From assembly GCF_900156425.1 (NCBI RefSeq), contig NZ_FTNO01000001.1, forward strand, positions 1,550,001 through 1,614,000: a stretch of DNA of 64,000 bases, in the 5' to 3' direction. Both the position numbers and the translations under genes were made by a program. The notes beneath the pieces are model-generated. The model worked only from the letters and a program-made list of their open reading frames with translations, did no database searches and had not been told where the DNA came from. The stretch is from Haladaptatus litoreus (GTDB lineage: Archaea; Halobacteriota; Halobacteria; Halobacteriales; Haladaptataceae). This document shows positions 22,414 to 64,000 of this stretch, piece after piece; the first letter of the stretch is position 1; every line of letters begins with the position of its first letter.

Positions 22414-22498
22414 GTGCGGGTAGCCAAGCTAGGCCAACGGCGCAGCGCTTAGGACGCTGTCCCGTAGGGGTCCGCCGGTTCGAATCCGGTCCCGCACA
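22414..22498 (+). tRNA. tRNA-Leu (anticodon TAG)
   Basis: An 85-nt class II tRNA. The acceptor GTGCGGG pairs with CCCGCAC, with discriminator A and no encoded CCA. The anticodon arm is CAGCG-CTTAGGA-CGCTG with anticodon TAG. A long variable arm follows, and the T arm reads CCGG-TTCGAAT-CCGG. A partial copy of its 3' end lies 103 nt downstream of its own end. Confidence 0.97.
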
Positions 22499-22661
22499 TT
22501 TTGCCACGAGCAATCTCGCGAGTGGTAAAACTGTGCCGAGCAGATTCAAAGTAGACGAGACGCACGCCCGGGAAGCGAAGCGACCCGGAACGTCTTGGCG
22601 TGGTTCGAATCCGGTCCCGCACATTTTACCACGAGCAACTCCACGAGTGGCAAAGTTGGAC
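22499..22661 (+). repeat. tRNA-tail hairpin element after tRNA-Leu
   Basis: Hairpin A (22499-22534) is closed by TTTTGCCAC and GTGGTAAAA. Hairpin B (22543-22611) is closed by GATTCAAA with TTCGAATC and an inner GAGACG/CGTCTT stem. The 3' strand of hairpin B belongs to a 22-nt duplicate of the tRNA-Leu 3' end (22602-22623). A second, diverged copy of hairpin A follows (22624-22661). The same architecture recurs after tRNA-Ser, tRNA-Thr and the tRNA-like gene at 61.4 kb. Confidence 0.75.
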
Positions 22662-38255: not shown

Positions 38256-38338
38256 GGTGGGATGGCAGAGCGGCCTATTGCGCCTGCCTTGAAAGCAGGT
38301 GGCGTCATGCCTCATGGGTTCAAATCCCATTCCCACCG
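38256..38338 (+). tRNA. tRNA-Ser (anticodon TGA)
   Basis: An 83-nt class II tRNA. The acceptor GGTGGGA pairs with TCCCACC, with discriminator G and no encoded CCA. The anticodon arm is CCTGC-CTTGAAA-GCAGG. A long variable arm follows, with T arm ATGGG-TTCAAAT-CCCAT. Confidence 0.97.
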
Positions 38339-38480
38339 TTTTTCACACGACTATTCGGCGAGCGAACGCTCCGCGGAGCGTTCGCTCGCCAGTCAGGAGT
38401 TGGGAAAACGGCGTCTGGATTTGAATTAGACCGAGGTTCTGCGTTTCACGCAGGTTCTCGGGCGTTGTTCAAATTTCAGT
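38339..38480 (+). repeat. tRNA-tail hairpin element after tRNA-Ser (decayed)
   Basis: Hairpin A is closed by CCGTTTTTC (its 5' end is in the tRNA) with GGAAAACGG and contains a 34-nt perfect palindrome at 38357-38390 (arm GGCGAGCGAACGCTCCG). Hairpin B (38418-38475) pairs GATTTGAA with TTCAAATT and CCGAG with CTCGG around a CTGCG/CGCAG stem. The final strand is a degenerate copy of the tRNA T arm. The remainder to 38759 holds no gene I can support. Confidence 0.7.
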
Positions 38481-52821: not shown

Positions 52822-52895
52822 GCCAAGGGAGCTTGGGTGGTTCAAGCACTCGATTTGTAATCGAGAATACGTGGGTTCAAATCCCACCCTTGGCT
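52822..52895 (+). tRNA. tRNA-Thr (anticodon TGT)
   Basis: 74 nt. The acceptor GCCAAGG pairs with CCTTGGC, with discriminator T and no encoded CCA. The D arm is GCTT/AAGC, the anticodon arm CTCGA-TTTGTAA-TCGAG, and the T arm GTGGG-TTCAAAT-CCCAC. It starts 17 nt downstream of the GNAT stop. Confidence 0.97.
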
Positions 52896-53065
52896 GTTTT
52901 GTCCGCGCCAATCTCGGCGCGGAGAAACACCGACGTGGCGATTTGAATCAGACCAGACACAACCCGCGCAGTGAGGGCGAGGTGCGAAGCACCTTGATAT
53001 GAACGGCGAAGCCGTGAGCGAACGAGCAGGAATGTCTGGCCGAGGTTCAAATCCCACCCTTGGCT
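52896..53065 (+). repeat. tRNA-tail hairpin element after tRNA-Thr
   Basis: Hairpin A (to about 52930) is closed by TCCGCGCC and GGCGCGGA with flanking GTTT/AAAC. Hairpin B (52940-53053) is closed by perfect 8-bp GATTTGAA/TTCAAATC and 7-bp CCAGACA/TGTCTGG stems and contains two small hairpins (GGTGCGAAGCACC, CGGCGAAGCCG). The 3' strand merges into a 22-nt exact duplicate of the tRNA-Thr 3' end (53044-53065). Confidence 0.8.
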
Positions 53066-57823: not shown

Positions 57824-59644
57824 ATGTGTGGAATCATCGGTCGCGTCGGCGAAACAGACGACGCCGTGGAAGAACTGCTCGTCGGCCTCGAGAACTTGGA
57901 ATATCGAGGATACGATTCGGCGGGATTGGCGGTGAAAAACGGGCGTGGCCCGGCAGTGTTCAAGCGAGAAGGCCAGATTTCGAACCTCAAAGATTCGCTT
58001 GCGACCGAGGTTCCTGCCGGAGGACTCGGCATCGGCCACACCCGCTGGAGCACGCACGGCCCGCCGACCGACGCGAACGCACATCCACATACGGGGTGTT
58101 CCGACCGCGTCGCGGTCGTTCACAACGGTATCATCGAGAACCACGACGACCTCCGAAAAGAACTGCAAGAACGCGGTCACACGTTCCAGAGCGACACGGA
58201 CACCGAGGTCATTCCGCATCTGGTGGAAGAACACCTCGCGGACGGTGCCACCCCTGAACAAGCCTTCAGACGGACGATTCGTCGGCTTTCGGGGAGCTAC
58301 GCCGTCGCAATGCTGGTAGACGAGAGCGACGCAATCTACGCAACTCGTTCCGGCTCTCCCCTCGTGTTGGGTGTTCGAGAGGGGAAATACTTCCTCGCCA
58401 GCGACGTGCCCGCATTTTTGGATTTCACCGACGAGGTCATTTTCCTCGACGACGGCGACATGGTCGTCATCGAACCGGGACAGCACGAAATCACGACGCT
58501 CGACGGGGAAGCGGTCGAACGCCCGACCCAGATTATCGAATGGGACCCGGAAGACGCCGGAAAAGGCGGCTACGACCACTACATGCTAAAGGAGATTCAC
58601 GAGCAGCCGACCTCGCTTCGGCAGACGCTTCGTGGCCGCGCAGACCCCGCAACCGGGGACATCGCTCTCGAAGATTTCCCGCCGGGAACGTTCGAGGAAA
58701 TCAGTCGCGTCCAGTTCGTTGCCTGCGGAACGTCCTACCACGCGGGACTCGTCGGCAGCCACTTCATCGGCAGTCGCGGCCTGCCAGCGCAGACGTTCCT
58801 CGCGAGCGAGTACGCCGTCTCCGCGCCGCCCGTGGACGAGAACACACTCGTCGTCGGCGTCACCCAGAGCGGGGAAACTGCGGATACGCTTTCCGCACTG
58901 CGGCGCGCCGAAGCAGGTGGCGCGCGGACGCTCGCCGTCACGAACGTCGTCGGTTCGACGGCGGCGCGAGAATGTGACGACGCGATGTTCATCCGGGCCG
59001 GGCCGGAAATCGGCGTTGCGGCGACGAAGACGTTCTCCTCGCAGGTGGTGTCGCTCTCCCTCCTCGGGGAACGACTCGTCCGAGACGTGGTCGGACGACG
59101 GAGCGACGACACACAGGACGTGCTGTCCGCACTGGCAGACCTCCCCGACCACGTCCAGCGGATTCTCGACTACACGAAGGCCCACCGAGTCGCAAAGCGG
59201 TACCGCGACTCCGACTCGTACTTCTTCATCGGTCGGGGGTCGGTGTTCCCGGTCGCGCTGGAAGGCGCGCTCAAGTTCAAGGAGATTTCCTACGAACACG
59301 CCGAAGGCTTCGCGGCAGGGGAACTGAAACACGGGCCGTTGGCGTTGGTAACGCCCGCAACTCCCGTGTTCGCGGTGTTTACCGGTCGTCACGATCGAAA
59401 GACGTTGAGTAATATGAAGGAAGTCGAAGCCCGCGGCGCACCGGTCGTCGCGGTTGCCAGCGAAACCAACGAGGAAATCGTCCAGTATGCGGACGACGTA
59501 CTGACCATACCGGACACGCATCCCGACGTTGCGGGGATTCTGGCGAACGTGCAACTGCAACTGCTCTCGTACCACGCCGCGGCGCAACTCGACCGACCCA
59601 TCGACAAACCGCGTAATCTGGCGAAGAGCGTGACAGTCGAATGA
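57824..59644 (+). CDS. glmS: Glutamine-fructose-6-phosphate transaminase (isomerizing)
   Basis: 606 aa. Makes glucosamine-6-phosphate from fructose-6-phosphate and glutamine, feeding amino-sugar synthesis. The start fixes Cys2 (MCGIIGRVGETDD) as the N-terminal nucleophile. Glutaminase loops WSTHGPPTDANAHPH and HNGIIENH are present, then two SIS domains (FVACGTSYHAGLVGSHFIGS, GVTQSGETADTLSALR, YFFIGRGSVFPVALEGALKF, EISYEHAEGFAAGELKHGPL) and a C-terminal SVTVE. Confidence 0.96.
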   Translation: MCGIIGRVGETDDAVEELLVGLENLEYRGYDSAGLAVKNGRGPAVFKREGQISNLKDSLATEVPAGGLGIGHTRWSTHGPPTDANAHPHTGCSDRVAVVHNGIIENHDDLRKELQERGHTFQSDTDTEVIPHLVEEHLADGATPEQAFRRTIRRLSGSYAVAMLVDESDAIYATRSGSPLVLGVREGKYFLASDVPAFLDFTDEVIFLDDGDMVVIEPGQHEITTLDGEAVERPTQIIEWDPEDAGKGGYDHYMLKEIHEQPTSLRQTLRGRADPATGDIALEDFPPGTFEEISRVQFVACGTSYHAGLVGSHFIGSRGLPAQTFLASEYAVSAPPVDENTLVVGVTQSGETADTLSALRRAEAGGARTLAVTNVVGSTAARECDDAMFIRAGPEIGVAATKTFSSQVVSLSLLGERLVRDVVGRRSDDTQDVLSALADLPDHVQRILDYTKAHRVAKRYRDSDSYFFIGRGSVFPVALEGALKFKEISYEHAEGFAAGELKHGPLALVTPATPVFAVFTGRHDRKTLSNMKEVEARGAPVVAVASETNEEIVQYADDVLTIPDTHPDVAGILANVQLQLLSYHAAAQLDRPIDKPRNLAKSVTVE

Positions 59645-59645
59645 A

Positions 59646-59676
59646 TCGGGCGGGTAAGCTTCGATTACCCGCCCGA
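59646..59676 (+). terminator. 12-bp hairpin after glmS
   Basis: TCGGGCGGGTAA pairs with TTACCCGCCCGA around a 7-nt loop, starting 2 nt after the glmS stop. Probable terminator. Confidence 0.55.
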
Positions 59677-59732
59677 ACCTACCTGAACGGTCGGCGCGGT
59701 TTAATCGCTCACCGGCCCCATTTTCTCCACGA

Positions 59733-60692
59733 ATGAACGCCGTCGTACTCTCTCTGGACGCCGAACTCGCGTGGGGGTACCACGACCTCTCCGAGATTCC
59801 TGACCACGTCGAGAGCGCGCGCACCTCGTGGTCACGACTCCTCGCACTCTTCGACGAGTTCAACGTCCCGGCTACATGGGCCGTCGTCGGCCATCTCTTT
59901 CTCGACTCGTGTGACGGAACCCACGCAGACCACGCGACGCCGACGGACGACTGGTTCGGCCGCGACCCGGGTGGCGTTGCCGAGTGCCATCCGCAGTGGT
60001 TCGCGGACGGCCTCATCGAAGACATCGCCGACGCGAGCGCGAACCACGAAATCGCCTGTCACTCGTTTTCGCACGTCGAATACGGCGACGTTCGAACCAG
60101 TCGGGAAATCGCCGTCGCCGAGACGCGAACCAGCCTCGAAATCGCGGACGACAGCGGCTACGATGTGGAATCGTTCGTCTTCCCGCGGAATAGCGTCGGC
60201 CACCGGGACGTGCTCGCGGCCTACGGCTTTACTTGCTACCGCGGCACCAGACCCGAACTCTGGTGCGACAAAACCCGATTTCGGTCGTTGGCCAAACTCA
60301 TCGACCGAACCGTGAGCAGGACGGGGCCACCCCTCGTGACTCCGGAAACGGACGACTACGGACTGGTGAACATCCCGGCTTCGATGTTCCTGTTCGGCGA
60401 CGACGGTCGCGTTCGCACCCTCACGAAGAACGTCTGGGACGACCCCGGTATTCGCTCGGCGAAGCGCGGCATCGACCGCGCCGCGGAGGCCGACGATGGC
60501 GTCTTTCATCTCTGGATGCGCCCCGGAAACTTCACCGAAGAGCGCGATTTCGAGCGCCTGCGCGTCGTCCTCGAACACCTCGCCATGCGCCGGGACGAGG
60601 CCCGAGTGAAGGTGCTGACCATGGGACAAATCGCGGGGCACCTCCGGGAGGAAGACCCGACGACGACGCGAACCCCAATCGGCCCTCGATGA
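59733..60692 (+). CDS. Polysaccharide deacetylase family protein
   Basis: 319 aa. NodB-like domain: MNAVVLSLDAELAWGYHDLS (metal Asp), HEIACHSFSHVEYGDVRTSR (His pair), PRNSVGHRDVLAAYGFTCYR and MWDDPGI-type C-terminal segments. Members remove N-acetyl or other acyl groups from sugars in polysaccharides; here it may process exported glycans. No signal peptide is obvious, so it may act in the cytosol. Confidence 0.85.
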   Translation: MNAVVLSLDAELAWGYHDLSEIPDHVESARTSWSRLLALFDEFNVPATWAVVGHLFLDSCDGTHADHATPTDDWFGRDPGGVAECHPQWFADGLIEDIADASANHEIACHSFSHVEYGDVRTSREIAVAETRTSLEIADDSGYDVESFVFPRNSVGHRDVLAAYGFTCYRGTRPELWCDKTRFRSLAKLIDRTVSRTGPPLVTPETDDYGLVNIPASMFLFGDDGRVRTLTKNVWDDPGIRSAKRGIDRAAEADDGVFHLWMRPGNFTEERDFERLRVVLEHLAMRRDEARVKVLTMGQIAGHLREEDPTTTRTPIGPR

Positions 60693-61159
60693 CGGCGAAA
60701 AAGAGTTTTTGAGGTTTGTAGTCGTGGACGAGTTGGACTTCTTCGACACTGGTCTTCGGATAGCATCACAACTGTAAAACACAGACCGACAGCGACCGCA
60801 GAAGTCACGACTCCACACACGCTCACTCGTCACTCGCTCCTTGCAGTCGCTCGTCCCTCGTTTGCCCTCGATTTCGGCAGGACGAATTTCCGAAAAACAG
60901 CTGACTAAATTTGGGTTGGCCGGGCGCGCGAGCGCGCCCGGCCTTTGGTGGCCTGGTGGTAACGGGCGAGCGAACAAGGGAATGAGTGGCTCTGCCACGA
61001 GTGACCGCAAGAGCGAGGGCGTGACCTAAAGTCGTGACTTCTGCGGTTACGTGTGTTGTACCGGTCTGTCATTGAAACTGAACTCCGAAAAATCACCTCC
61101 AACCGTCTCGCTGACTCCCTTTCTCACTTTTCCTCGGCACGTCCGTTCTCGTAAAAGCG
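60693..61159. repeat. Foldback (inverted-repeat) element in a gene-free stretch
   Basis: Within a 467-nt gene-free stretch, an 18-nt perfect inverted repeat pairs 60795-60812 (ACCGCAGAAGTCACGACT) with 61030-61047. Further imperfect arm similarity runs inward (CACTCG, CCCTCG, GCGAGC), with outer CAGACCG/CGGTCTG at 60781-60787 and 61062-61068. The centre holds a 26-nt hairpin (GGCCGGGCGCGC, GA, then its complement) at 60918-60943. The whole looks like a MITE-like hairpin element of about 250-290 nt without a transposase. Confidence 0.65.
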
Positions 61160-61403
61160 GAAGGGGCGGGATTCGAACCAGAGCCAGAGGTTCCTACTCG
61201 TCTCACTGTCGTTCGACTCCGTGGGCGTGCCACTGGCAGGATGCGAATCGCTATTTCGGTTTCACTCCTCGTCTTCGCTCGTCGCAGAAACGGAAGGGGC
61301 GGGATTCGAACTACGCCCGGACATGCTCACTACGTTGCGCGTGCCCGATCTACTTCGAATCGCTATTTTGGTTTCACTCCTCGCCTTCGCTCGTCGCAGA
61401 AAC
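61160..61403 (-). repeat. Two tandem tRNA-tail hairpin elements
   Basis: Read on the minus strand from the tRNA-like gene at 61404-61487. Two extra copies of its 20-nt 3' tail (GTTCGAATCCCGCCCCTTCC) end at 61292 and 61160. Each copy is preceded by hairpin A (GTTTC/GAAAC closed; both contain GCGACGAGCGAAG) and by hairpin B. B1 (61303-61361) pairs GATTCGAA with TTCGAATC; B2 (61171-61249) pairs GATTCG with CGAATC, with GCCAG/CTGGC inside. Confidence 0.75.
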
Positions 61404-61487
61404 GGAAGGGGCGGGATTCGAACCACGCGAAGCCTGTCAAGCTCCCACCGACAAATCGGTGGTGCTCTACCACTGAGCCACCCTTCC
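61404..61487 (-). tRNA. tRNA-like gene, isotype unresolved (possible pseudo-tRNA)
   Basis: 84 nt. The acceptor GGAAGGG pairs with CCCTTCC, and the D arm GCTC/GAGC and T loop TTCGAAT are intact. The T stem is GCGTGG against CCCGC, needing a bulged T. The anticodon arm is ambiguous: the first hairpin, CCACCGA-TTTG-TCGGTGG, has no 7-nt loop, whereas a second arm GGAGC-TTGACAG-GCTTC would give anticodon GAC (Val) at the cost of a 17-nt insertion. A 3-nt loss from a Thr TGT-type arm would also explain the first hairpin. Confidence 0.42.
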
Positions 61488-61591
61488 ACGATTTACACAT
61501 TGGGAGGAACTATCTTTGTTATGGGCGGGCTGAAGACAGTTCATCTACGGCTTCGACGCCCACAAACAAACCGATTGTGGGCGATAGAAGT

Positions 61592-62602
61592 TTAGACCGT
61601 CAGTTCCCCGACGAGCGAGCGAAGCCCCACGGAGAGCGAAACCGTCGGCTCGTAGCCCAGTTCGTCACGTGCCCTTTGCACGTCTGCCCTACTGTGGTCG
61701 ATGTCACCCTGTCTGGGTTCGACGTGGACGATGTCGGAATCCGAATCGCTCGCGTCCCGAACCGCCTCCGCGAGTTCCCGAATCGTCACGCTCTCCCCAG
61801 TTCCGACGTTGAACGCCTCGCCGGTTCGGTCGGTGACTGCCGCGCGGAGATTCGCCTGCACCACGTCGGAGATGTGGACGAAATCTCGCGTTTGGGTGCC
61901 GTCTCCTTCAATCGTAATGTCGTCACCCCTGCGAGCCTGCTCCATGAACACCCGAACGACCGCACTGTACTCCGGATTCTGTCGCGGTCCGTAGATGTTA
62001 AAATATCGCAGCACGACTGTCTCAAGCCCGTAAAGGTCGGAAAATCGCCGTGTGTACTGGTCGGCGACGAGTTTGTCGATGCCGTAAGGCGAGGTCGGCG
62101 ACTTCCGCGCCGATTCCGAAATCGGCACCGACTCGGGGTGACCGTACACCGCCGCACTGGAGGCGAGGACGACCCGGGCGTCCTCCCGCCGGGCGCAATC
62201 GAGGACGACTAGCGACCCGTTGCCGGTGACGGCGTGGCTTCGAAGCGGGTGTTCGACCGACTGCTCGACGCTGACCATCGCGGCCTGATGAAAGACCGTA
62301 TCGACGCCCGCCATCGCGTTTCGCACGGCTTTCGGGTCGCGCACGTCGCCCTCCACGATGTCGGCGTTTTCGGGAACGTTCCCGCGATTGCCGGACGAGA
62401 AGTCATCGAGAACGCGAACCTCGTTCTCGGAAGTGAGGGCATCCACGAGGTGACTACCGACGAATCCCGCGCCGCCCGTGACGAGAATCGTCTGGTCTGT
62501 CGGAGACGGAATCGTGGCCGAATCCGAACCGGCGATGTTGAGCGAATCGCCGGTTCGGGCGAAACTGTCGGGTCGCTCCGAATCGTCGATGTCACCGCTC
62601 AT
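61592..62602 (-). CDS. NAD-dependent sugar-nucleotide epimerase/dehydratase
   Basis: 336 aa short-chain extended dehydrogenase. After an unusual ~35-residue acidic N-terminal extension comes ILVTGGAGFVGSHLVDAL (NAD-binding), then VFHQAAMVSVEQSVEHPLRS, LASSAAVYGHP and the catalytic YGIDK. ETVVLRYFNIYGPRQNPEYS is typical of UDP-glucose 4-epimerase relatives. It produces or interconverts sugar donors, which the N-glycosylation cluster could use. It overlaps the next gene by 4 nt (62599-62602), so they form an operon. Confidence 0.92.
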   Translation of the reverse strand: MSGDIDDSERPDSFARTGDSLNIAGSDSATIPSPTDQTILVTGGAGFVGSHLVDALTSENEVRVLDDFSSGNRGNVPENADIVEGDVRDPKAVRNAMAGVDTVFHQAAMVSVEQSVEHPLRSHAVTGNGSLVVLDCARREDARVVLASSAAVYGHPESVPISESARKSPTSPYGIDKLVADQYTRRFSDLYGLETVVLRYFNIYGPRQNPEYSAVVRVFMEQARRGDDITIEGDGTQTRDFVHISDVVQANLRAAVTDRTGEAFNVGTGESVTIRELAEAVRDASDSDSDIVHVEPRQGDIDHSRADVQRARDELGYEPTVSLSVGLRSLVGELTV

Positions 62603-64000
62603 TCCATATACCCGAGTCCGCGGAGTCGGTCTTCCACGTCGTCGAAGTCGGCTTCGACCGCAGTCGCGCTCCCCGCCTGCCCGTATTCGCGCTGTGAAAC
62701 CGCCCGGCGTCCCGGTTTCGACCCATCGTGGAAAATTTCTTTCAGCACGCGACCGTCCGCGTCAGAGGGAACCGCCTCGTCGAGCGCGTGAAGAATAGTC
62801 GGGGCAACGTCGGTTACGTTCGCGTCGGTGGCACTCGCACCCTGTTCGACGCTCGGCCCCCACGCGAGGAAAATTCCTTCCGGTCTATGGCTGGCGACTT
62901 TGCTCCCGCTATCCCGAAATACGTCCCGCGTCAGCGACACCGCGGTTTCGTACTCCTCTTTTCCTTTGACGACGAGGTCGGGCGAATGCGGATCGGTCGG
63001 AAACAGTTCGTCGCCGTCGTGAACGTCGAGGGCACGGTTTTCGGTTTCGGGGTCGGTCAGCCCCTCGAACAGGGAACGAAGTTCGCTTTTGATTGCGGGG
63101 ACGTCTTCGGGCGCGACGACGCCGGGGTCGAACCGAATCGTATCGTTGACGTAGACGTTGCCCGACCCGTGGGCGAACGCAACTGTTTCCTCGAACTCCA
63201 CGTCGTACAGGTTGTGCTCGCCGGGAACCTGCGCGGCGACGGTATCGACGACGGATTTCGGCAGGTGTTCGACCAGCGACTTTTCGCTCACGCCGAGTCG
63301 GGAGAGAAGCCCTTGAACGCGGTTTTTCGTCAGTCCGACGCGAGCGAGCGCGCCGCGGGTTCCGTCTCCACCTTTCCGCTGGAGGTGTCCTTCGCGCTCC
63401 AGCAGGGTGTTGAGGAAGACGAACCGCGAAATCGGGCCGAAGCCGTGGTCGGAGACGATGAACAGCGCGGAATCCCGGGATTCCGTGTACTCCATCACCT
63501 CGCCGAGAATGTCGTCCAGTTCGCGGTAATGATCGAGCAGCGCGTCTTCCTCCCAGATGAGATGCTGAAGTCTGTCCGGTGCGGTGTAGACGAAAAAGAA
63601 CAGTCGCCACTCCTCGTCCATCAGCCGACCCATCAGCTTCCTGCGGGTCTCGAGCAGGGTAGACAGTTCCTCTCGAAATTCGTCCGGTCGGTTGCGAAAC
63701 TCGTCCCACGAGAGGCCGATTCGGTAGTCTGGAATCGTCTCTTTCAACTCTTTTCCGAACTCCGTCGGGTGGGTGAACCGCTCGTCCATCTCCGGCGTCA
63801 TCATCCCCGTGACGAGCGTCCCGTCAATTTCGCTGGCCGGGTAGGTCATCGGCACGTTGCCCACGACGGCGGGCGAGAGGATGTCCCAAAGTTCGGGCCG
63901 TCGCACGTCTGCACTGGTGTTCATCCGGTGGGTGTACTCTCGCTCCAGATGCTGGAAGCCGTACAGGCCGTGTTTGTCGGGCCACACCCCCGTCGCAATC
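62599..64000 (-). CDS. Alkaline-phosphatase-superfamily phosphodiesterase (5' end beyond the window)
   Basis: An open frame running off the right edge; at least 467 residues are visible, beginning IATGVWPDKHGLYGFQHLER. The core is of type I phosphodiesterase/nucleotide pyrophosphatase: MTYPASEIDGTLVTGMMTPE, IVSDHGFGPISRFVFLNTLL, DVEFEETVAFAHGSGNVYVN and HRPEGIFLAWGPSVEQGASA, with Asp/His metal ligands. Related proteins act in glycan or lipid phosphate metabolism in haloarchaea. Partner of the epimerase by a 4-nt overlap. Confidence 0.85.
   Translation of the reverse strand, partial: IATGVWPDKHGLYGFQHLEREYTHRMNTSADVRRPELWDILSPAVVGNVPMTYPASEIDGTLVTGMMTPEMDERFTHPTEFGKELKETIPDYRIGLSWDEFRNRPDEFREELSTLLETRRKLMGRLMDEEWRLFFFVYTAPDRLQHLIWEEDALLDHYRELDDILGEVMEYTESRDSALFIVSDHGFGPISRFVFLNTLLEREGHLQRKGGDGTRGALARVGLTKNRVQGLLSRLGVSEKSLVEHLPKSVVDTVAAQVPGEHNLYDVEFEETVAFAHGSGNVYVNDTIRFDPGVVAPEDVPAIKSELRSLFEGLTDPETENRALDVHDGDELFPTDPHSPDLVVKGKEEYETAVSLTRDVFRDSGSKVASHRPEGIFLAWGPSVEQGASATDANVTDVAPTILHALDEAVPSDADGRVLKEIFHDGSKPGRRAVSQREYGQAGSATAVEADFDDVEDRLRGLGYME

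Follow-up and report, generated by a model that had tools for sequence, protein, structure and literature searches.

At the 3' ends of tRNA genes in the haloarchaeon Haladaptatus litoreus we found a repeated unit that consists of a trailer with a T-run, an inverted T-loop box, a core hairpin and a copy of nucleotides (nt) 53-73 of the tRNA, standing behind the cognate gene. The analysis started from a 64,000-nt stretch (the window; contig NZ_FTNO01000001.1, positions 1,550,001 to 1,614,000), in which a tRNA-like gene on the minus strand is followed by two such units in tandem. The unit looks like an undescribed, very small cassette-like element on tRNA genes; no description of it appeared among the matches listed in the open-access literature, a collection that leaves subscription journals mostly outside, so one may exist. 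Our favored reading, to which we assign a probability of about 0.45, is that the units are DNA cassettes that use the tRNA T-loop, between G53 and T54, as their exchange site and work like integron attC sites.

A tRNA-like gene followed by two tandem units

The locus at 61158-61487 (minus strand) comprises the tRNA-like gene and two units, each with a T-run and trailer hairpin (hairpin A), an inverted T-loop box, a core hairpin (hairpin B, counted together with its boxes) and a perfect tail copy including G53 (Table 1). The tail GTTCGAATCCCGCCCCTTCC has exactly three minus-strand copies, all exact, with low coordinates 61404, 61292 and 61159. An earlier note on this DNA had reported the three copies at spacings of 112 and 132 nt; the first spacing stands, and the second is 133 nt. 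No further copy exists in the whole 4.67-Mb genome, even with up to two mismatches allowed. Both hairpins precede each extra tail copy, as the note had described. Its formula for hairpin B (NNAGA/GCGTNG) holds for unit 1, which is composed of the box GATTCGAA, a type A core (GTAGA...GGCGTAG) and the T-loop box TTCGAATC, and fails for unit 2, whose loop reads ATCCTGC/GCTCTGG (type B). Unit 1 is among the ten units that built the covariance model used below. Hairpin B of unit 2 is not among the matches of this model in the genome and, with a fold z-score of -0.91, is by itself no better than shuffled sequences; its type B core is present in other genomes and other genera too.

The gene that heads the locus is predicted to fold into an acceptor stem, a D arm and a T arm with a bulged T stem, a 7-bp stem with a 4-nt loop replacing the anticodon loop. 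In this predicted fold it lacks the 7-nt anticodon loop of a functional elongator tRNA, and ARAGORN found no valid anticodon here or in the three sister species in which the gene is kept. A strict pattern recovered it in 12 of 145 class genomes (5 of 58 genera). Such genes show constant D and T arms (TTCGCGTGG before TTCRAATCCCGC) around a variable hairpin in place of the anticodon arm, and occur in four haloarchaeal family groups, at loci L107, L217, L251, L254 and L271-L280 besides the one in the window.

Three plus-strand frames of the window (61051-61476, 61221-61595 and 61241-62212) run antisense to the tails and translate as GRGGIRT... and EGAGFEP...; open frames of this kind over tRNA tails are likely spurious where they are annotated as genes.

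Occurrence in the genome and across the class

We inspected the downstream region of the 46 tRNA loci that the Rfam tRNA model finds in the genome. A hand count gave a clear tail copy behind 16 of the 46, the first copy lying 89-231 nt downstream, and a decayed unit behind four more (L018, L031, L036 and L039); a scripted count of 19 included a spurious case (L024), a partial tRNA (L053) and a decayed unit (L018). Using a covariance model built from ten units of this genome (alignment A2, in which L029 was oriented by its core, opposite to its tRNA), we obtained 13 matches at E <= 0.1 in the own genome, all 13 just behind tRNA genes and 12 on the tRNA strand. The model misses some units, such as the second one of the locus described above.

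Beyond this genome the model matched 9 of 9 Haladaptatus genomes and, across the class, 304 of 391 sampled genomes belonging to 73 of 86 genera, which is probably a lower bound because only 12 candidates per genome were scored. A scan of the phylum gave matches in 62 of 392 genomes, all 62 in the source genome's own order, with 310 of the match-free genomes unlisted. A pattern scan of named genomes returned 35 loci, all haloarchaeal, including Actinarchaeum halophilum, which taxonomy places in Halobacteria. From 100 loci, mostly best-scoring matches and not a random sample, we collected 141 model matches, and 125 distinct units among them have a same-strand tRNA 26-450 nt upstream, the position that the earlier note had named as support; a lack of matches beyond the window, which would have spoken against its reading, was not observed. 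Their hosts cover 28 anticodon types plus the tRNA-like gene.

The 16 remaining matches comprise one duplicate, which was dropped, and 15 others that are mostly explained. Nine are second-strand readings of one palindrome, L056 is a true inversion, L107 sits behind a tRNA-like gene that ARAGORN missed and L140 lies at a contig end; at L149 no tRNA was recognized, and L104 and L141 are weak matches distant from a tRNA. The type A query that we also ran against phage records matches two plasmids, once behind tRNA-Val and once within tRNA-Cys.

The copied tail ends at the discriminator base

We compared copy and host tRNA position by position in 119 of the 125 units, leaving out six without a GTTCRA anchor; G53 agrees by construction, since the anchor forces it. 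Identity was 61% at nt 52, 94-100% over nt 54-68 and 85-90% over nt 69-73, and fell to 53% at the base after N73 (control 50%). At +2 to +5 past N73 it was 39-46% (control 28-47%), copy and control both being T-rich there, and farther on it was near background. Compared with other tRNAs, the same positions agreed in 23-57% in the most variable parts of tRNAs and reached 79% at nt 62 and 85% at nt 72. The profile indicates that the copy extends from nt 53 or 54 through the discriminator N73. Over nt 62-73, 107 of the 119 copies differ from the host tRNA by at most two mismatches.

Pairing of the 5' box is tRNA-specific over nt 54-65 and barely extends farther (118 units), and the T-loop box TTCRAATC is common to 41 of the 46 tRNA genes inspected in the genome. 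Within 8 nt after tail copies, internal or last, we counted 3.8-4.0 T residues, the same as after tRNAs (control 1.7). These T-runs suggest that the tRNA is probably terminated ahead of hairpin B and that each unit provides a usable 3' end, which we read, on sequence grounds, as favoring a DNA cassette.

Covariation of the hairpin stems

In the ten-unit alignment A2, 88.8% of the cells pair, compared with 76.7% after shuffling and 20-56% with the partner slid. The larger alignment A3 (137 distinct rows), which was fitted to the model, gave 92.1% against 80.1% and at most 55%, respectively, with helix 1 at 94.2% and helix 2 at 89.1%; 14 of its 17 pairs have changed on both sides. Stems that keep pairing while their bases change had been noticed before, and the alignments confirm this: the hairpin structure is maintained by compensatory change. 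The earlier suggestion of a structure under selection, or of a mobile hairpin that copies the host tail, is borne out as to compensatory change and host-specific tails; the part of the hairpin itself in copying the tail stays a suggestion.

The layout of outer arm, unpaired spacer, inner arm and variable top recurs in 126 non-redundant sequences (the 141 matches minus 11 named rows and duplicates). On the tRNA-sense strand, the inner stem contains 41 G-T against 4 A-C cells, 23 of the 41 coming from one position, mainly in one core family, and the outer stem 34 against 21. The excess in the inner stem speaks for folding of the sense strand, as RNA or single-stranded DNA. A chance palindrome is ruled out by the genome-unique tail, pairing above the shuffles, the location of 13 of 13 matches behind tRNAs and the covariation. 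Rfam found only tRNA in the window, with no gathering score reached by a unit.

Core families and their exchange between tRNA loci

The cores fall into types A (NNAGA/GCGTNG), B (ATCCTGC/GCTCTGG), C and D (TCAGGGAGYG/GACCGTGG), and two core families recur over many genera. With a strict pattern, type D was found in 46 of 145 class genomes (25 of 58 genera) and had no control matches. In 15 fetched loci of these 46 genomes all 16 places lie 37-310 nt behind a tRNA; 14 of the 16 tail copies have 0-2 mismatches and one has four, the other (L287) having been mis-anchored by the script. Type C is not supported as a class-wide family, its strict pattern finding 1 of 145 genomes, and was seen in this genus only.

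Among 76 units, a count that excludes a parse artefact at Gly(gcc) of genome G005 (a whole second tRNA taken as core), 65 have a core at least 70% identical to one elsewhere. The nearest core stands at a different tRNA type in 46 of these 65, and in 43 of the 46 the trailers are less than 60% identical; the remaining three include both members of the Ala(cgc)/Ala(ggc) pair, which shares the entire unit. Conversely, trailers at least 80% identical accompany cores only 48-64% identical (random pairs 54%) at Lys, Ser(cga), Leu(tag), Phe and the tRNA-like gene. What moves between tRNA loci is the core; box, trailer and tail belong to the host. In the Ser(tga) unit of the sister species G008, the box is of the host type and the copy has a G57 like that of its closest relative at Leu(taa).

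At tRNA-Val(cac) the two T-loop boxes enclose a core in reverse orientation (L056:1501-1568; own genome, C2:1492018-1492085), the sole clear inversion. Inserts between nt 53 and 54 stand inside tRNA sequences without a first tail at a tRNA-Cys (L158) and at L146, L082 and L053. The inverted Val(cac) core and the core inserted in tRNA-Cys fit recombination at the T-loop.

The insert of L158:616-758, on a plasmid of Haloarcula halophila, consists of a type B core plus a short hairpin and interrupts, between nt 53 and 54, a tRNA that is otherwise intact; we read the host gene by eye as tRNA-Cys, in a tight cluster with nine ARAGORN tRNAs. This tRNA-Cys is either broken or has its insert removed at the RNA level. 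By eye, without a program, we recognized no archaeal bulge-helix-bulge at this position in the tRNA-Cys of L158 or in type A units. At L053 (own genome, behind tRNA-Leu(gag)), L082 and L146, a further 3' half of tRNA-Leu or tRNA-Phe stands behind the gene, and other hairpins interrupt it immediately before TTCRAATC.

Gain, loss and arrays among Haladaptatus species

tRNA loci were compared in four Haladaptatus species (46, 44, 47 and 26 loci). The last of these, G008, was left out of the presence count because only 26 of its 56 loci were read, several of them picked for model matches. Across the 41 tRNA types shared by the three fully read species, a tail copy is present in some species at 21 types, in all at 6 and in none at 14; units are gained or lost among these species. 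Four tRNAs, Glu(ttc), Val(tac), Lys(ttt) and Leu(caa), offer clean comparisons of empty and filled sites: in the filled species, the last tail copy is followed by the trailer that the empty species has.

Units form arrays of up to four, with exact tail-to-tail edges. That units can multiply, as two in tandem had implied, is seen behind tRNA-Lys(ttt) of G008, which carries three identical 111-bp units. At Leu(tag) a pair of units is common to G008 and G005, and G005 adds one on the tRNA side and one beyond; this part of the Leu(tag) arrays suggests that arrays gain units on the side of the tRNA. G000 and G002 have their Phe units in different orders. Among the cells in which the other species agree, 64 show a change confined to the copy, 6 of them in the T-loop box and 58 at other positions; in 3 both tRNA and copy have changed, and in none the tRNA alone.

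Proposed DNA cassettes at the T-loop and comparison with known systems

In the reading that we favor, the cassette would exist at the DNA level. The tRNA-sense strand would fold as a single-stranded hairpin with the T-loop box as its outer arms, and strand exchange between G53 and T54 would add, remove and reorder units, the tRNA T-arm taking the place of attI. The folded arms would be recognized, as attC is by IntI, by a recombinase acting in trans, most likely a haloarchaeal tyrosine recombinase, and cores would pass between tRNA types via TTCRAATC. We propose that the exchange would spare tRNA function because each unit brings a complete tail and a terminator. Recombinase, single-stranded folding and the direction of array growth are what we infer here. 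A bolder version, an integron-like system without genes in its cassettes, in which the T-loop is the insertion site, the cassette a complete replacement 3' end of the tRNA with terminator and the folded single-stranded hairpin, exchangeable between tRNA genes, the recombination site, is a tentative proposal that we regard as somewhat improbable.

attC sites are described as having a spacer, extrahelical bases, a variable terminal structure and strand choice (PMC8946536, in part). The units resemble them in the succession of outer arm, spacer, inner arm and variable top, and the two arms, unpaired spacer and variable top of an imperfect attC palindrome are seen in A3 (137 rows). They also resemble integron arrays in the direct repetition of units, the nearly uniform orientation and the occurrence of empty and filled sites. 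They differ from integron cassettes in carrying a tRNA tail and terminator, not an open reading frame (ORF), and in having the tRNA T-loop box as arms.

Several observations weigh against the attC-like reading. The R'/R'' sequences of attC have the consensus GTTRRRY/RYYYAAC, which by eye the units do not match (arm G-TTCRAATC, C56 breaking the purine run); because of this mismatch, and with the integrase still hypothetical, we do not file the units as an integron. Neither an integrase nor an attI was seen, no search being aimed at either, and among the ORFs of 58000-64000 none was recognized by eye as an integrase. The link between core and trailer is loose, a core changing without its trailer, unlike in integron cassettes. 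Past the T-loop box, the outermost two stem pairs show A-C as often as G-T. Integron cassettes should sometimes bring a foreign tail, but a tail copy convincingly from another tRNA was seen in 0 of 119 units, and the copy shares a change of the host tail in 3 of 3 cases, which plain attI x attC exchange does not predict; both facts are more easily reconciled with copying or conversion of the local tail. The Ser(gga) unit contains a trailer similar to the local one, which a local duplication would also account for, and the clean edges could also arise by deletion or slippage between 20-bp direct repeats.

Other mobile elements share single traits with the units. Overlaps of 4-7 nt with tRNA 3' ends are described for five euryarchaeal casposons (PMC4046053, in part). 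Casposons and Cas1 integration are alike in this location, and growth of arrays on the tRNA side would resemble CRISPR polarity, whereas the units duplicate all of nt 53-73 and have a conserved structured core near one end only; cas1 and polB between terminal inverted repeats, which define a casposon, would not fit into the tail-to-tail spacing of about 100-250 nt. Archaeal proviruses and plasmids that integrate at tRNA genes by tyrosine integrases likewise produce a direct repeat of the tRNA 3' part up to the gene end (PMC3119063 and PMC8371274, both in part), an example being the 22-nt duplication of a Haloquadratum provirus at tRNA-Ala (PMC3119063, in part). The units differ in their short spacing, their arrays and their conserved hairpin, and in having no viral relative in the searches made. 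REP elements are short, non-coding, palindromic and multi-copy. The same holds for PATEs and SMR of haloarchaea (PMC3119063, in part). All three differ from the units, of which 13 of 13 own-genome matches are tied to tRNA genes and the arms match the host tRNA. Mitochondrial double-hairpin elements and yeast GC clusters are tiny structured elements that move without encoding an enzyme; to our knowledge, the mitochondrial hairpin elements are not bound to tRNA tails and have no host-matched arms.

Alternative explanations

The hairpin might instead function as RNA, co-transcribed with the tRNA: for example, it could be a trailer RNA released by processing, a decoy that draws enzymes binding the T-arm, or a switch in which the inverted box pairs with either tail. 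We consider this rather improbable, although several observations suit it: the stems covary, with G-U exceeding A-C on the sense strand of the inner stem, the hairpins lie on the same strand as the tRNA, the Leu(tag) core is 100% identical between two species whose trailers are 82% identical, the T-loop box is better kept than the rest of the copy (see the changed cells above), and the copy stops at N73, the mature 3' end. Gene conversion would then exchange cores because these would be functional domains. Against it, tRNA and hairpin are separated by a T-run that matches those of other tRNAs in strength, so little read-through is expected; three sister species differ in the presence of units at 21 of their 41 shared tRNA types; one core is inverted; an Rfam scan of 8 loci at a relaxed threshold gave, apart from tRNA, only matches below their gathering scores; and G-T wobble forms in single-stranded DNA as well. 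If it were true, the units would represent a structured RNA tied to tRNA genes across a whole class. H/ACA, k-turn and REP (GTAG) ideas were dropped because internal-loop bases differ between core types.

Passive recombination, in which hairpins and tails are mere by-products, units expand and disappear by slippage between 20-bp tails and cores spread by short-tract conversion via the 8-nt T-loop box with no dedicated enzyme, is unlikely in our estimate. It would account for the identical tandem units at Lys(ttt) of G008 and for the joint changes of tail and copy, and the G57 in the Ser(tga) copy of the same species suggests a conversion tract ending inside the T-loop box. It leaves unexplained the compensatory change in class-wide recurring core families, the restriction to tRNA ends, the placement of new trailers exactly between N73 and the old trailer and the inserts between nt 53 and 54 within tRNAs. 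Far less probable still is that each unit is the att scar of a deleted virus or plasmid once integrated at a tRNA 3' end. Haloarchaeal proviruses do leave partial tRNA copies (PMC3119063, in part), and tRNA 3' ends are preferred by archaeal integrases (PMC8371274, in part), but one core type stands behind many tRNA types, and the units lie 26-450 nt behind the tRNA, mostly too close for a usual gene. Strict patterns for types A and D had no exact match in a viral contig collection, and a single type A query had no credible match in 50,697 phage records (best E 0.5); a viral element is thus not supported by these searches, which may overlook distant forms. Genes within longer cassettes were also set aside, the units inspected lying at most 450 nt from the tRNA and no ORF search having been made inside them.

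Were the units indeed DNA cassettes exchanged at the T-loop, most sampled haloarchaeal genomes would contain a repeat element without a name found so far, overlooked because its location in tRNA trailers resembles annotation noise. They would provide a natural, testable case of structure-guided DNA recombination at archaeal tRNA genes, would bear on why tRNA ends are integration hot spots and would form a family with separable host match (tail), exchange site (T-loop box) and payload (core).

Other units within the window

Hairpin B had also been reported behind three other tRNAs of the window, and we found it there, one unit apiece, behind tRNA-Leu(tag), tRNA-Ser(tga) and tRNA-Thr(tgt) (Table 1). 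The tail copy of tRNA-Ser(tga) is decayed past the T-loop box.

Table 1. Features of the units and their host genes in the window (CM, covariance model; fold z, z-score of the fold against shuffled sequences).
Feature	Coordinates	Strand	Evidence
tRNA-like gene	61403..61487	-	cmscan RF00005 44.1 bits (cut-off 29); ARAGORN tRNA-???; fold
Trailer hairpin A, unit 1	61372..61402	-	sequence; begins with T-run behind N73
Hairpin B, unit 1	61303..61361	-	CM 73.8 bits, E 3.2e-11; fold z -2.65
Tail copy 1	61291..61311	-	exact nt 53-73 of tRNA-like gene
Trailer hairpin A, unit 2	61260..61290	-	1 mismatch to unit 1 trailer
Hairpin B, unit 2	61170..61249	-	sequence; type B core ATCCTGC...GCTCTGG
Tail copy 2	61158..61178	-	exact nt 53-73 of tRNA-like gene
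tRNA-Leu(tag), unit host	22414..22498	+	ARAGORN, Rfam tRNA
Trailer hairpin A behind tRNA-Leu(tag)	22499..22530	+	sequence
Hairpin B behind tRNA-Leu(tag), type A core	22543..22611	+	CM 69.2 bits, in model; fold z -1.90
Tail copy of tRNA-Leu(tag)	22603..22623	+	exact 21 nt
Second trailer hairpin A, after Leu(tag) tail copy	22624..22654	+	sequence
tRNA-Ser(tga), unit host	38256..38338	+	ARAGORN, Rfam tRNA
Hairpin B behind tRNA-Ser(tga), core CCGAGGTTCTGCG	38418..38475	+	CM 64.8 bits, in model; fold z -4.77
tRNA-Thr(tgt), unit host	52822..52895	+	ARAGORN, Rfam tRNA
Hairpin B behind tRNA-Thr(tgt), long core	52940..53053	+	CM 46 bits, E 1.8e-5, outside model; fold z -5.41
Tail copy of tRNA-Thr(tgt)	53045..53065	+	exact 21 nt

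By eye, trailer hairpins A (for example 22499-22530, and that of L022) frequently have a CGC-GA...GA-GCG pattern with possible tandem G-A pairs, and lookalikes of hairpin A also stand behind tRNAs that have no unit.
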